Positions 6,244 to 11,940 of a stretch of 64,000 bases of DNA are shown piece by piece (position 1 is the stretch's first letter; the number at the start of each line of letters is the position of its first letter). The notes under the pieces were generated by a model. That model was given only the letters and a program-made list of their open reading frames with translations, was not told the origin of the DNA and searched no databases. The position numbers and the translations under genes were made by a program. The DNA comes from Natrinema sp. SYSU A 869 (GTDB lineage Archaea; Halobacteriota; Halobacteria; Halobacteriales; Natrialbaceae): assembly GCF_019879105.1 (NCBI RefSeq), contig NZ_CP082249.1, positions 62,001 to 126,000 on the forward strand, in the 5' to 3' direction.

Positions 6244-6503
6244 CGGACGAAACCATTCAGAAACTGCTGTCGTTGTTTGAACATAAAGTTCCGCCTGAGG
6301 AGCCGACTCTCGTCGAAGCGAGAGTCATTGCTCCGGCTGGTAGTGATCCTCGAGGTGTCGCTATCGAACTTTCAGCTGCTCGTCAGGGAGAGAATAAACG
6401 GGTGACTCTCAGAGGGGACCACGACGGGATGCGCGCACTCGGCGAAGCACTCGTCGACGCCGTTGAGGAACTTCCCACCGATGAGAGGGAAAGCTCTAAT
6501 TGA
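6240..6503 (+). CDS. Small protein B of a tandem related pair
   Basis: The product has 87 residues and no recognised family. It has about 25 extra N-terminal residues (TIQKLLSLFEHKVPPEEPTL, probably helical) before the domain shared with its upstream partner, which ends RVTLRGDHDGMRALGEALV. The 4-base start/stop overlap with gene A suggests co-translation and possibly a heterodimer; that is inference. Downstream there is only transposase debris, so the pair forms an isolated two-gene unit. Confidence 0.65.
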   Translation: MTDETIQKLLSLFEHKVPPEEPTLVEARVIAPAGSDPRGVAIELSAARQGENKRVTLRGDHDGMRALGEALVDAVEELPTDERESSN

Positions 6504-6769
6504 TAGTCTTCTATAAATAGATGCCACTTTTCTGTAGGTGTGCCTAGGATACGGCAGCGAATGCCTTTGAGAGGGTGTCATAGAACAACTCACATAGCAG
6601 TTGATTTTGGCGGGTTTGCAATGAACGCACTGTCGTGTGCAATGTGCGTATTGACCGCGAGGGTTCTACCAGTTCTGAGACGTTTTCCGATAGCCGTGCG
6701 AGATATAGGGCGCGCATTCAGTAGTCCGCTGCCCAGTTGGGGATGAACGGTGTGTGTTCAATAGAGGAA
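6504..6769. other. Non-coding stretch, probably insertion-sequence debris
   Basis: No gene is supported. Minus-strand reading gives fragments broken by stops directly downstream of the recognisable transposase relic, so this may be the eroded 3' end of the same element, but no residue motif proves it. Confidence 0.4.
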
Positions 6770-7012
6770 TCACATCGCGTGTGACCCTGCGTCAACACTG
6801 ACTGATGCGAACTCAACAGCGACATCGTGGCAGTCTGTGTCCATTTGGTCAATGACCTCACGCTCTGTGCTGTGAATCCGTTTTGAGATGAGGTAGTTCA
6901 TATGGCGGTTCGAGCGCATCTAAAAGACGCTCATCGAGTCGAACTCGCGATCACAGAACGCTGTCTCAATCAAGACGTGTTCTTTCGCACGCCGAACCAA
7001 CCGTCGGTGACC
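6770..7012 (-). pseudogene. Remnant of a haloarchaeal DDE transposase
   Basis: The minus-strand frame between stops reads LVRRAKEHVLIETAFCDREF, then DSMSVF, a stop (6920-6922), then MRSNRHMNYLISKRIHSTER and onward to a stop at 6770. The CDREFDS piece resembles the second catalytic Asp region of ISH transposases, and NYLI-x-KRI is typical of the following strand. Upstream and downstream ends are missing and one in-frame stop remains, so it is a dead fragment of about 80 codons. The exact IS family is not assigned. Confidence 0.6.
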
Positions 7013-7085
7013 TCAGTCCCGAGTATCGGCGGGAATGGTATACGGGCTGATAAAGCGAATGCCATGGGGATTGTCCCGAAACGAT

Positions 7086-7655
7086 TCACCCGGTCGCGTT
7101 GCGCAGAACGAGCGTATCATCGGCAAGGTATCGATCGAGGACGTGCGCGTCTTCTTCGAGTGTCTTCAGATGGCGGCGCAGGAGTTCGCTCGTCGCCTTA
7201 TCGCCGAGCTGGTCCGCCAGTTCGATATGTTCACGCCACTGCACCGCGAGCGTCGCGTACCCGTCGAGGTCACGCTCGAGCGACGAGCGGATATCGTAGT
7301 GATGGGCTTCTTCGATGAATATGGGCGCGTGTTGGCGGATACCCATCGGCCCACAGGCCGGAACACCGCCGAGCGCGCTGATCCGAATGGCGATGTCGTC
7401 GGTCATCTCCGTGAGCCGGTCGGCAGCATCCTCAAGGAAGTCACTGATCAGGGTCAGTTCGGCCCCCTCGACGAGCCAGTAATGCTTGCGCACCTGATTG
7501 AAGAGGATATACAGTCCCGACACTTCGCTGTTCAAGGCCGTGACCAGCTCTTTAGCTACGTCCTGTTCGAGATGGAGCCCATTGTCGGCTACCGCGTCCC
7601 ATTCCTGACGGACATGAGATTGGTCATGGCTCCGGAGATGTGGTGTACTCATCAT
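7086..7655 (-). CDS. Dps/ferritin-like paralog lacking ferroxidase ligands
   Basis: The protein has 189 residues and aligns without gaps to the canonical DpsA two genes upstream through the ferroxidase region. There the first ligand His is Tyr (RKHYW against KKHHW), the second His is Ser (LISDF against LHEFL), the metal Glu is Ile (DDIAIR against DEIAER), and the Asp is kept. The four-helix fold looks intact, so it probably still assembles but cannot oxidise iron in the normal way. It may dilute or cap the cage, bind DNA or bind something else; this is inference. It is the last gene of a three-gene operon and its start overlaps the previous stop by 4 bases. Confidence 0.85.
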   Translation of the reverse strand: MMSTPHLRSHDQSHVRQEWDAVADNGLHLEQDVAKELVTALNSEVSGLYILFNQVRKHYWLVEGAELTLISDFLEDAADRLTEMTDDIAIRISALGGVPACGPMGIRQHAPIFIEEAHHYDIRSSLERDLDGYATLAVQWREHIELADQLGDKATSELLRRHLKTLEEDAHVLDRYLADDTLVLRNATG

Positions 7656-8233
7656 CGTTCCTTCAGCACCTCCGCTCGAACGAGCGTCTCATCTTCGAGG
7701 AATTGCTCGATAGTGTGGGCGTCATCTTCGAGGTTTTCGAGGTGGTCACGGAGCAGTTCAGCCGTGCCCGGGTCGGCCTTCTCTTCTGCCAGAGCAATAT
7801 GTTCACGCATACTGACTATCAGGATCGCATATCCATCGAGATCACCCTCCAAGGAGGCACGAAGGTCGTACAGATCCTCGGCCTCGAGGGGGACCTCGGC
7901 CCGTTCCTGAAGCGTCGGCGGTGTGTTCGGGGGAATCCCACCCAGTTCGACGATACGAATTGCGAGCTCGTCGTTAATCTTGCGCACTCGTTTATACGCA
8001 TCCTCGAGGAAGTTAGCGACCTCTTCGTGTTCGGCACCTGCAGCGGTCCAGTAATGCTTGCGAAGCAGGTAGAACAGGTTGAACGATCCTGCGTGGTCGA
8101 CGCTCAGGGCGTCAATGAGTACCCCGGCGTCGGCGCGGTTGACCCGGAGTGCGTTCTCTGCGATGGTACCCCATTCTTGACGGCGCTCGCCTGTATCGGG
8201 CTCCCGAACGAGTCGGCCTTGTTTCTGTGCCAT
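7652..8233 (-). CDS. Dps/ferritin-like paralog lacking ferroxidase ligands (second copy)
   Basis: This 193-residue Dps-fold protein is the middle gene of three. Compared with DpsA the ligand positions read Tyr (RKHYW), Ala (EVANFLED) and Ile (DELAIR), with the Asp kept, nearly the same losses as the third gene. An N-terminal extension (GRLVREPDTGERRQEW) is basic and polar. The start is 13 bases after the DpsA stop, so it is co-transcribed. Shared losses suggest that one degenerate copy arose first and was then duplicated, or that both serve a non-ferroxidase role. Confidence 0.85.
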   Translation of the reverse strand: MAQKQGRLVREPDTGERRQEWGTIAENALRVNRADAGVLIDALSVDHAGSFNLFYLLRKHYWTAAGAEHEEVANFLEDAYKRVRKINDELAIRIVELGGIPPNTPPTLQERAEVPLEAEDLYDLRASLEGDLDGYAILIVSMREHIALAEEKADPGTAELLRDHLENLEDDAHTIEQFLEDETLVRAEVLKER

Positions 8234-8246
8234 TCAGGTTACCCGT

Positions 8247-8795
8247 TCAGTGAGTGGCACTCTCGAGGACGAGCGTGTCGTCTTCGAGGTAGTGTTCGAA
8301 GTGGTGACCGTCTTCTTCGAGGTCGACGAGAATCTCGCGCAGCATCTCGCCGGTTGCGGGGTCACCGAGGTTCTCGGCGAGTTCGATGCTGCCGCGCATT
8401 GACTCGATGATCTCGCCGTACATCTCGAGATCGTTCTCGAACATAGTGCGAACATCGTAGACGTCTTCACCCTCGAACTCGACGGTCGCGCGCTCCTCGA
8501 GGTTCGACGGGCCTGAGACGGGGACGCCGCCCAGCGCCTGCGCACGCTCGGCGATCTCGTCGGCACCCTCTTCGACGTGCTCGTAGGCTTCCTCGAGAAA
8601 CTCGTGCAGCGGCAGGAACTCGGCTCCCTCGACGACCCAGTGGTGCTTTTTGAGCTGGTGGTAGAGGACGTACGAGTTCGCCAGTTCGGAGTTCAGTGCC
8701 TCGACGATCTGCTCGGCTTTGTCCTGATCGAGCCGGAGCGCGTTTTCGTCGACGGTGCCGGCTTCTTGACGGACGGTCGTCTCTTGGGAACTCAT
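8247..8795 (-). CDS. dpsA: DpsA, iron-storage ferritin-like protein
   Basis: This 182-residue canonical haloarchaeal DpsA stores iron in a dodecameric cage and protects against iron-driven oxidation. The inter-subunit ferroxidase ligands are all present: the second His of KKHHWVVEGAE, the His of LHEFLEEAY, then Asp and Glu in ADEIAERAQALGG. The gene heads an operon with two degenerate paralogs. A TATA-like TTTAAG at 8822-8827 would place the transcription start within a few bases of the ATG, and no SD is seen, so the mRNA is probably nearly leaderless. Confidence 0.93.
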   Translation of the reverse strand: MSSQETTVRQEAGTVDENALRLDQDKAEQIVEALNSELANSYVLYHQLKKHHWVVEGAEFLPLHEFLEEAYEHVEEGADEIAERAQALGGVPVSGPSNLEERATVEFEGEDVYDVRTMFENDLEMYGEIIESMRGSIELAENLGDPATGEMLREILVDLEEDGHHFEHYLEDDTLVLESATH

Positions 8796-8821
8796 CTCAT
8801 GGGAGGTAGTCGCTCGACAAC

Positions 8822-8827
8822 CTTAAA
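8822..8827 (-). promoter_or_regulatory. TATA-like element of the dps operon
   Basis: TTTAAG on the minus strand is centred about 30 bases before the dpsA ATG, the spacing expected for a leaderless archaeal transcript. Confidence 0.45.
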
Positions 8828-8940
8828 GCTTTCAGAAACCATACATTTTCGGGAGACTTAAATTCGTTTTGTAGATCCAGTAATCTCAGTCTGTAAAGGT
8901 ACTCAAGCGTTTCGTCGAGCGACTGATCGCCGAAGTCGTC

Positions 8941-10044
8941 TCAGGTCCCGGTCGAGTCCGCACCACGGTGCGCGCGTCCGGCCCGCTCGTCTATCGGATC
9001 TTCGAGGTCGCCCATGACCTCCTCAAAGGCATCCGTCGAGGTCAGGAGACCAATGATCTCGTCGCCCTCGGTGACGAGGGCGAGTTCCTGATTTTCCCTC
9101 TGGAAGCGGTCGATAGCGTCGTTGATCTCCTCCGTGGCCGGAAGCGTCATCGGCGACGCGGCGATATCTTCGATGCCGACGTCGCCGCTCATGAGGTCCT
9201 CGAAATGGTTCGTGATCGTCGGGAGATAGACGATGCCGCGGAAGTCGTCTATGTCTTCGCCGACCACTGGGTAGCGAGAATGGGAGTGTTCCTCGACGAG
9301 CGCGAGGTTCTCCTCGGGGGTGTTCTCGGTCGAGAGCGCGACGATCTCCTCGCGCGGAACCATGATCACCTCGACCGGGATGTCGCCAACGGCCAGCGCG
9401 TTCATGACCTCCTGCCGGCGTTCTTCGGGAACGTTTCCCGCTTCGAGGGTCGAGCTGAAGCGCTTGTAGAGGCCCGCACGCCCCTGCATGACGTCGGCTT
9501 CGGTTTCGAGCCACGCGCCGGTCATCTCGACGCCGAACAGCGAAAGCGTCCATTTCGCCGCTCCGTCTCCAAACTTGATGATCGGCCAGATGGCTCGCGT
9601 CCACCAGTACAGCGGCGTCGCACAGTACCGACAGACCAGTTTCGAGCGCTCGACGCCGAGATAGGTAGGGGTCTGCTCGCCGTGAGTGAGATGGACGAGG
9701 TTGACGATGAGAAACGCGAGGATGGCCCCTGCGCCGACCGATGCGAGAACGGTACCATCGAACAGCGGTTCGAAGATGGCCGTGAGCGCGGGTTCGGCGA
9801 CGATCCCGACCGCGATGCTCGAGAACGTAATCCCGATCTGGCAACTGGTCAAGTAAATCTCCAAATTCTGAGTCATCTCCCACGCGCGTTCGAGAGCGGT
9901 TCTTCCGGGTTCCACGAACTCCGCTTCGGAATACTGTCGGGCGCGGGTCAGCGCGAACTCGATGGCGACGAAAAACCCGTTGGCGAGAATGAGTAATAGA
10001 CCGGCGATAAGCCTGATGGAGGCTTCGAGCGCGGTCATCGGCAT
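8941..10044 (-). CDS. CNNM/CorC-type membrane protein with DUF21 and CBS domains (copy 1)
   Basis: The protein has 367 residues. The N-terminal DUF21 membrane domain begins LLLILANGFFVAIEFALTRA and has about four helices to residue 170. A CBS pair follows (VIMVPREEIVALSTENTPEE and the second repeat ending TEGDEIIGLLTSTDAFEEV). The family is implicated in magnesium or cobalt efflux and resistance; the CBS pair probably binds ATP. Downstream of the CBS pair only a short polar tail is present, with no CorC transporter-associated domain. A close tandem paralog lies directly upstream, 88 bases away on the same strand. Confidence 0.87.
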   Translation of the reverse strand: MPMTALEASIRLIAGLLLILANGFFVAIEFALTRARQYSEAEFVEPGRTALERAWEMTQNLEIYLTSCQIGITFSSIAVGIVAEPALTAIFEPLFDGTVLASVGAGAILAFLIVNLVHLTHGEQTPTYLGVERSKLVCRYCATPLYWWTRAIWPIIKFGDGAAKWTLSLFGVEMTGAWLETEADVMQGRAGLYKRFSSTLEAGNVPEERRQEVMNALAVGDIPVEVIMVPREEIVALSTENTPEENLALVEEHSHSRYPVVGEDIDDFRGIVYLPTITNHFEDLMSGDVGIEDIAASPMTLPATEEINDAIDRFQRENQELALVTEGDEIIGLLTSTDAFEEVMGDLEDPIDERAGRAHRGADSTGT

Positions 10045-10132: not shown

Positions 10133-11239
10133 TCAAGCCGGGTCGCTCTGGGAGTCTAGTCCCGATGCGTCGTCCCCACGTTGTTTGCGCTGGTAGGCGT
10201 CAATTGGGTCCTTGAGTTCGCCCATCACTTCCTCGAAGGCGTCCGTCGAGGTTAGCAGGCCGACGACCCGTCCCTCCTCAGTGACGAGCGCGAGCTCCTG
10301 ATTTTCCGTCTGGAAGCGGTCGATGGCGCCGCTGATTTCCTCGTCGGCCGGCAGCGTCATCGGGGGCTCGGCGAGGTCTTCGATGTCGATGTCGCCGTTT
10401 TTGAACGCCTCGAACTGGTTTGTGACCGTCGCGAGATAAACGACCCCTCGGAAATCGTCGATGTCCTCACCGACCAGCGGAAAGCAGAGATGTGGCTGCT
10501 CCTCGATGACCGCGAGGTTTTCCTCGGGGGTGTTGTTGGTCGAGAGTGCGGCGATTTCCTCGCGCGGCACCATGCTGTCACGGACGGGGATTTCCTTGAC
10601 CACCAACGCGTTCATCACTTCCTGACGACGCTCTTCGGGGACCTCGCCGTCGTCGAGTATCGACCCGAGCTGTCGGTGGAGGTCCGCACGCCCCTCGATG
10701 TCCTCGCCGTCGGATTCGAGCCACGCACCGGTCATCTCGACGCCGAACAGCGACAGCGTCCATTTCGCTACCCAGTCACCGACGCGGAGAATCGGTCGAA
10801 TGACCCACGTGAACCAATACAGCGGCGTCGCGCCGTAGCGACAGACCTGTTTCGAGCGCTCGACGCCGAGGTAGGTGGGGGCCTGTTCGCCGTAGACCTT
10901 GTGTACCAGGCTCACGATGATGTATGCCAAGATCACGCCCGCACCGATCGACGCGAGAACCGTCTCGCCGAACAACGGCTCGAACAGCGCTGCGAGCGCG
11001 GGTTCGGCGACGATACCCAGTGCGATGCTAGCGGCGGTGATGCCGACCTGACACCCGGTGAGATAGATTTCGAGATCCTCGGTCATCTCCCACGCGCGTT
11101 CGAGGCCGGGTTCCATGAACTCCGCTTCGGAATACTGTCGGGCGCGGGTCAGCGCGAACTCGATGGTGACGAAAAACCCGTTGGCGAGAATCAACGCGGC
11201 ACCCGCGACGAGACGGAGGAGTATTTCGGGTGCTTGCAT
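10133..11239 (-). CDS. CNNM/CorC-type membrane protein with DUF21 and CBS domains (copy 2)
   Basis: The protein has 368 residues and is co-linear with its neighbour at 8941-10044. The DUF21 part is highly similar (FALTRARQYSEAEF and TYLGVERSK are shared), and so is the CBS pair (SMVPREEIAALSTNNTPEEN). Differences concentrate in the helix loops and the C-terminal tail. Long stretches of near-identical DNA show a fairly recent tandem duplication. The two products may form a heterodimer, since CNNM proteins are dimeric; that is inference. Confidence 0.87.
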   Translation of the reverse strand: MQAPEILLRLVAGAALILANGFFVTIEFALTRARQYSEAEFMEPGLERAWEMTEDLEIYLTGCQVGITAASIALGIVAEPALAALFEPLFGETVLASIGAGVILAYIIVSLVHKVYGEQAPTYLGVERSKQVCRYGATPLYWFTWVIRPILRVGDWVAKWTLSLFGVEMTGAWLESDGEDIEGRADLHRQLGSILDDGEVPEERRQEVMNALVVKEIPVRDSMVPREEIAALSTNNTPEENLAVIEEQPHLCFPLVGEDIDDFRGVVYLATVTNQFEAFKNGDIDIEDLAEPPMTLPADEEISGAIDRFQTENQELALVTEEGRVVGLLTSTDAFEEVMGELKDPIDAYQRKQRGDDASGLDSQSDPA

Positions 11240-11508: not shown

Positions 11509-11940
11509 GTGTACCGCGACGTCCTTATCCCGACAGATGGATCCGATGCGAGCGCAACAGCGCTGGACCACGGGATAGAAATCGCATCGAGTGTGGGTGC
11601 CGAGGTGCATCTCCTGCACGTTGTAGACGTTGGGACGGAGATGTCCGCATCCGCCGTTGGCGACATCGCGGACGACCTCACCGAAGCGCTTGATGAGGAA
11701 GCGGAAGAGGCGCTCGAGCAGGCCGAGCAAATGGCCGATGAGGCCGGAGTTGCGTCCGAACGAGCCGTTCTCGAAGGATTTCCCGAAGACGCAATACCCC
11801 AGTATAGCGCTGATAACGGGATCGACCTCATCGTGATCGGAGAAAGCGAGGATTCGACCCTCACAGAACGACTCTTCGGGAGCACGACGGAAGACGTTCT
11901 CGAATCGGTTACTACCTCGGTTCTGGTCGCTCGGGAATGA
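11509..11940 (+). CDS. Universal stress protein UspA family
   Basis: The product is 143 residues with a GTG start (VYRDVLIPTDGSDAS), a standard single-domain Usp. The N-terminal strand and ATP-binding Asp (PTDGSDAS) and the C-terminal GES-x9-FGSTTEDVL loop fit the ATP-binding Usp class, though the usual GxxG glycine spacing is weakened. Such proteins support survival under stress through unclear mechanisms. It stands alone, with a dehydrogenase fragment upstream and non-coding DNA downstream. Confidence 0.9.
   Translation: MYRDVLIPTDGSDASATALDHGIEIASSVGAEVHLLHVVDVGTEMSASAVGDIADDLTEALDEEAEEALEQAEQMADEAGVASERAVLEGFPEDAIPQYSADNGIDLIVIGESEDSTLTERLFGSTTEDVLESVTTSVLVARE

Follow-up and report, generated by a model that had tools for sequence, protein, structure and literature searches.

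A conserved haloarchaeal dps operon with one canonical DpsA and two paralogues that lack three of the four ferroxidase ligands

Why would a genome keep, directly behind an intact dps gene, two further copies that have lost most of the metal ligands of the ferroxidase site? The question is raised by an operon of Natrinema sp. SYSU A 869, located in a window of 64,000 nucleotides (contig NZ_CP082249.1, positions 62,001 to 126,000) whose own numbering is used below unless another contig or locus is named. A preliminary description of this window had reported three Dps genes that align without gaps through the ferroxidase site and are separated by 13 bases and then by a 4-base overlap, which was confirmed from the open reading frames and their alignment. 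The features concerned are as follows.

8247–8795, minus strand: dpsA, 182 amino acids (aa), a canonical haloarchaeal DpsA with the ligands His52, His64, Asp79 and Glu83 all present
7652–8233, minus strand: dps2, 193 aa, with Tyr61, Ala73, Asp88 and Ile92 (own numbering) at the ligand positions
7086–7655, minus strand: dps3, 189 aa, with Tyr59, Ser71, Asp86 and Ile90 (own numbering) at the ligand positions
7652–7655, minus strand: 4-base ATGA overlap between the stop codon of dps2 and the start codon of dps3
8048–8083, minus strand: codons of the Dps2 helix-A motif FNLFYLLRKHYW around the former His52, near-invariant in the family
7476–7511, minus strand: codons of the Dps3 helix-A motif YILFNQVRKHYW around the former His52, near-invariant in the family

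The 13 bases between dpsA and dps2 occupy positions 8234–8246, and the alignment of the three proteins stays gap-free from the ferroxidase region to near the C-terminus. Dps2 and Dps3 share 44% and 47% identity with the operon DpsA, respectively. DpsA, Dps2 and Dps3 match the Pfam Ferritin family PF00210 (3e-34, 6e-19 and 3e-19) and all exceed the 170-bit cut-off of the NCBIfam DpsA equivalog NF041388 (292, 177 and 188 bits). By sequence, the two paralogues are therefore Dps proteins, with a Ferritin-like four-helix domain of DpsA type; of the ligand set His, His, Asp, Glu they keep Asp alone. The residues already described, HHDE in DpsA and Tyr, Ser or Ala, Asp, Ile in the downstream copies, proved correct (YADI in Dps2, YSDI in Dps3). 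Residues are numbered hereafter as in the operon DpsA, which according to the alignment equals the numbering of Halobacterium salinarum DpsA. A predicted model of Dps2 adopts the Dps fold (predicted local distance difference test 84.9, predicted template modelling score (pTM) 0.80), and its nearest solved structure is H. salinarum DpsA (PDB 1moj, template modelling scores 0.82/0.87); the fold of Dps3 was judged by sequence alone.

The two paralogues are not peculiar to this genome. Among 391 Halobacteria genomes, searched with Dps2 and again with Dps3, orthologues of both co-occur in the identical 40, which represent five families (f1, f2, f3, f4 and f8) and include Natrinema, Haloterrigena, Natronococcus, Natronorubrum, Halopenitus, Haloarcula, Halorubellus, Halogranum, Halegenticoccus and Halobium. 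Dps2 is readable in 39 of these carriers and Dps3 in all, and the residue counts below cover 39 Dps2, 40 Dps3 and 28 DpsA sequences. When about 85,000 species genomes were scanned with a pattern, at limited sensitivity, matches came from haloarchaea alone, and no match was found in viral contigs at the sensitivity used.

The ligand losses recur throughout these orthologues, which speaks against chance, yet the pattern is less uniform than first described. HHDE is intact in all 28 DpsA sequences. The loss of His64 alone is without exception: the residue is missing from all 79 Dps2 and Dps3 copies, and in Dps3 its position is free to vary. Tyr predominates at position 52 (35/39 Dps2, 29/40 Dps3), with Lys, Arg, Gly or Ala as other residues in Dps3. 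Position 83 is mainly Val, Ile or Leu; Glu is gone from all Dps3 and persists in 8 of the 39 Dps2, which makes it probable that at least part of the Glu83 losses occurred independently in Dps2 and Dps3. Asp79, on the other hand, is retained in 38/39 Dps2 and 40/40 Dps3, and His51 is near-invariant alongside it. Glu75, one helical turn before Asp79 and present in 28/28 DpsA, is replaced by Arg in 38/39 Dps2 and by Thr, Ser or Ala in Dps3. Since the motifs FNLFYLLRKHYW and YILFNQVRKHYW are near-invariant, the paralogues are not loose around the old site. These substitutions suggest that metal coordination may have given way to a polar or salt-bridge contact, a geometry judged from helix periodicity rather than from coordinates.

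The preliminary description had also considered a different ligand, and such a site, rebuilt for another metal or cofactor through Tyr52, His51 and Asp79, would agree with the near-invariance of Asp79 and His51 in both paralogues and with the frequency of Tyr52. It is nevertheless quite improbable, because the neighbouring residues turn positive or hydrophobic: Glu75 has become Arg or Thr/Ser/Ala and position 83 is mostly aliphatic. Moreover, Dps3 tolerates free variation at position 64 and replaces Tyr52 by residues as different as Lys and Gly, while His51 and Asp79 are common to DpsA and may be structural.

Could Dps2 and Dps3 simply be decaying duplicates on the way to pseudogenes? They do evolve faster than DpsA, and two carriers look damaged: dps2 is frameshifted in G222 (locus L047), and in G234 (locus L038) dps2 and dps3 are separated and long-branched, with a dps3 frame that lacks the usual start and N-terminus. 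Both anomalies are possibly local decay or assembly errors. Against this stand the open dps2 frames in 39 of 40 genomes, the invariant family signatures, the conserved spacing and the perfect co-occurrence. By the Nei–Gojobori method, the ratio of nonsynonymous to synonymous substitution rates (dN/dS) relative to six close relatives is about 0.15–0.24 for Dps2, 0.14–0.27 for Dps3 and 0.02–0.18 for DpsA; at high G+C the compression of synonymous change makes values for distant pairs unreliable. In a region-wise comparison, the two paralogues are as conserved as the catalytic DpsA. Purifying selection over several families contradicts decay, which we regard as hardly credible. Pseudogenes in related genomes and a dN/dS near 1, the two findings named beforehand as fatal to a selected non-catalytic role, were looked for: the former amounted to one clear frameshift and one decaying-looking pair among the 40 genomes, and the latter was not found among close relatives. 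Pseudogenization and relaxed selection were rejected accordingly, with G222 and possibly G234 as isolated exceptions, and the proposed selection for a non-catalytic role is supported.

The phylogeny places the origin of the pair within haloarchaea. A fully supported branch separates each of DpsA, Dps2 and Dps3 from the remaining sequences, and with bacterial outgroups Dps2 and Dps3 appear as sisters (support 84/100, not decisive) inside haloarchaeal DpsA. This topology suggests that the loss of His64 was probably a single ancestral event. The DpsA proteins of triads from different families sometimes cluster (G239, G350, G306), which points to joint transfer of the three genes. One triad, in Halarchaeum, is plasmid-borne.

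Gene arrangement bears on what the pair does. The order dpsA-dps2-dps3 is found in 26 of the 40 carriers; the first gap is 12–13 bases in 15 of these triads, and the remaining measured ones have −1 to 7 bases. At the dps2-dps3 junction the spacing is −4 or +1 to +6 bases; the few departures are G234, a fusion and a separated Saliphagus pair. In two Halogranum species the two genes have become one open frame, of 396 codons (L092:3001–4188) and 414 codons (L103:3001–4242), with hydrophilic linkers of differing sequence. Apart from dps genes, no conserved partner extends beyond close relatives in the 33 neighbourhoods inspected. Hetero-oligomers, another of the roles proposed earlier, are favoured by the perfect co-occurrence, the adjacency and the in-frame fusions, although these fall short of proof.

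The positions that tell the two paralogues apart point in the same direction. In Dps structures, helices A, B and BC form the two-fold dimer contact, which also holds the ferroxidase site, and the three-fold pores are lined largely by helices C and D. Nine positions are fixed in Dps2 and fixed differently in Dps3; all lie within DpsA residues 39–107, in helix A, helix B or the BC region, and none in helices C or D, which fits a specific Dps2:Dps3 dimer.

We therefore consider, with a probability of roughly 0.5, that Dps2 and Dps3 are non-catalytic subunits that form an obligate hetero-unit and co-assemble with DpsA into mixed cages. A dpsA duplication in haloarchaea would have produced dps2 and dps3, which would then have diverged into an obligate pair. 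The two proteins would be made together and pair, most likely as a two-fold Dps2:Dps3 dimer; there, a metal-free polar contact may close what was the ferroxidase site, with Tyr52, Asp79 and Arg or Thr/Ser at position 75 in place of the metal. Such units would most likely enter mixed 12-subunit cages with DpsA. As in H/L ferritin and hetero-bacterioferritin, the proportions of the subunits could then determine how many ferroxidase sites a cage has and what its inner and outer surfaces are like. We infer the oligomer composition, the lost ferroxidase activity, the sealed-site geometry and the mixed-cage role from sequences and gene order.

Several observations weigh against this view. The case for physical association runs through co-occurrence and fusion, which are indirect. 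Covariation between Dps2 and Dps3 (46 pairs, about 29 effective) is dominated by one two-clade split and gave no usable contact signal. Lys52 of Dps3 does occur only together with Glu83 of Dps2, but the three cases (L027, L028, L035) fall together in the Dps2 tree and do not count as independent. The model of a natural Dps2-Dps3 fusion is weak (pTM 0.46), with no readable interface. Furthermore, the presence of a canonical DpsA in every carrier is to be expected anyway, as a DpsA-like gene was matched in 372 of the 391 genomes, and a cage without DpsA is possible because about one third of carriers have no dpsA adjoining the pair.

The main rival follows from the last point: Dps2 and Dps3 might form their own metal-free cage or a smaller oligomer without DpsA, with a non-iron role such as DNA coating or compaction, for which DpsA, being very acidic, may be ill suited. 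The pair stands away from dpsA in 14/40 genomes, in all of which the canonical dpsA lies elsewhere. Its mean isoelectric points (4.5 for Dps2, 5.0 for Dps3) exceed that of DpsA (4.2), and the N-terminal tails are longer, with on average 4.4 and 3.1 Arg/Lys residues against 2.0. However, these tails carry no net positive charge, and the retention of dpsA directly upstream in 26 carriers, at a short conserved gap, speaks against a separate particle. We infer cage assembly, iron chemistry and DNA binding of the two paralogues in the same manner, and hold this alternative to be possible but doubtful.

Mixed dimers need not be catalytically silent. Each Dps ferroxidase site is formed jointly by two subunits (PMC8999374). 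With Asp79 kept in 78/79 copies, Dps2 and Dps3 might lend it, in some clades together with Glu83, to complement the two His residues of DpsA; the resulting sites would be half-active or altered. Given the Glu83 of 8/39 Dps2, a DpsA:Dps2 dimer could even hold one complete site in some clades. The paralogues would then be modulators of catalysis rather than pure scaffold. Both this lending and the modulator role it implies seem unlikely, since Arg75 of Dps2 adjoins Asp79 and Glu83 is gone from most Dps2 and from all Dps3.

Returning to the mixed cage with an obligate pair, comparison with known systems shows what is familiar in it. H. salinarum DpsA (PDB 1moj, 1tjo and others) is by sequence the closest solved relative of both paralogues and agrees with the operon DpsA in numbering and ligands, but it comes from one gene and its ferroxidase site is intact; Dps2 and Dps3 lack three of the four ligands of that site. 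Hetero-bacterioferritins are more similar in organization, being tandem duplicates a few bases apart in which one subunit has the ferroxidase center and the other lacks its residues. In Magnetospirillum gryphiswaldense, bfr1 and bfr2 lie 11 nucleotides apart and one subunit is without ferroxidase residues (PMC6529640), and co-assembly has been shown for Bfr1/Bfr2 (PMC6529640) and for Shewanella SoBfr12 (PMC12120770). These cages, however, have 24 subunits, heme and an intrasubunit site, whereas the haloarchaeal triad belongs by sequence to the 12-subunit Dps type with an intersubunit site and has two dead paralogues. Animal H/L ferritin likewise combines catalytic and non-catalytic isostructural chains (PMC7762939), but it is a 24-mer with one active and one inactive chain, unrelated at the subfamily level. 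Two features of H/L or Bfr1/Bfr2 systems recur here: purifying selection on the non-catalytic paralogues, and, in 26/40 genomes, catalytic and non-catalytic genes side by side. Dps proteins without ferroxidase activity are also on record (PMC3613396).

Dead or heteromeric ferritin subunits are thus already known in other ferritin branches; searches of the open-licence literature yielded neither a conserved operon that combines one live with two dead Dps paralogues nor a fused dead pair. Lactococcus lactis DpsA and DpsB are said to lack a ferroxidase center, an explicit statement of which was not found in that literature, and reportedly form stand-alone DNA-binding cages, unlike the operon pair beside an active DpsA. 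Tentatively, and with less confidence than in the main explanation, the triad may encode a prokaryotic hetero-Dps cage, the analogue of H/L ferritin among mini-ferritins. Its three paralogous subunits would comprise a catalytic one and two dead ones that function solely as a matched pair, and the number of active sites would be tunable. The operon suggests for the 12-subunit Dps class what hetero-bacterioferritins show for 24-subunit cages. If co-assembly is true, a further ferritin branch has again uncoupled the cage from its chemistry, and the triad offers a natural system for asking what an inactive Dps subunit is for.

Automatic annotation hides the dead pair because all three genes are called dpsA. 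In the window (7086–8795), NF041388 accepts both dead paralogues, and active DpsA is consequently overcounted in haloarchaea by such annotation. The same genome (G000) carries four further Ferritin-family genes, seven in total, at G000:C3:691198–691626, 1470498–1470926, 3341182–3341595 and 3772074–3772517 (L002, L003, L004 and L007); two are DpsA-like (89% and 69% identity to the operon DpsA) and two are of other ferritin-like types. On the Halarchaeum plasmid NZ_CP054708.1 (L107:5442–7124), all three triad genes are annotated dpsA.

Upstream of dpsA, two candidate control elements were recognized.

8846–8862, minus strand: inverted repeat TTTAAGTCTCCCGAAAA, a copy of the TTTWGG-N4/5-CCNAAAA element common to dpsA promoters
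8821–8833, minus strand: putative promoter element GAAAGCTTTAAGG, resembling a transcription factor B recognition element (BRE) and TATA box

The repeat mostly lies 65–90 bases before the start codon, upstream of the BRE/TATA-like box. With at most two mismatches it precedes 21/26 triads, a count that is partly circular because the pattern was drawn from triad sequences, and 15/19 stand-alone dpsA genes, against about 4% expected from shuffles. It resembles a DtxR/IdeR-type operator, which would fit a report that H. salinarum DpsA is down-regulated when iron is deficient (PMC3600143) and suggests a regulator of that type. No operator or terminator-like inverted repeat was found downstream of dps3 in 6450–7090. 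Genes for metal-dependent (SirR/DtxR-like) regulators recur near haloarchaeal dps genes at varying positions (neighbourhoods of G017, G039, G061 and G259; L110:341–766; L112:2675–3082). Directly upstream of the operon, two tandem CNNM/CBS-domain membrane proteins (PF01595 and PF00571) are encoded at 8941–10044 and 10133–11239 on the minus strand, and beyond them a Usp-family gene occupies 11509–11940 on the opposite strand.
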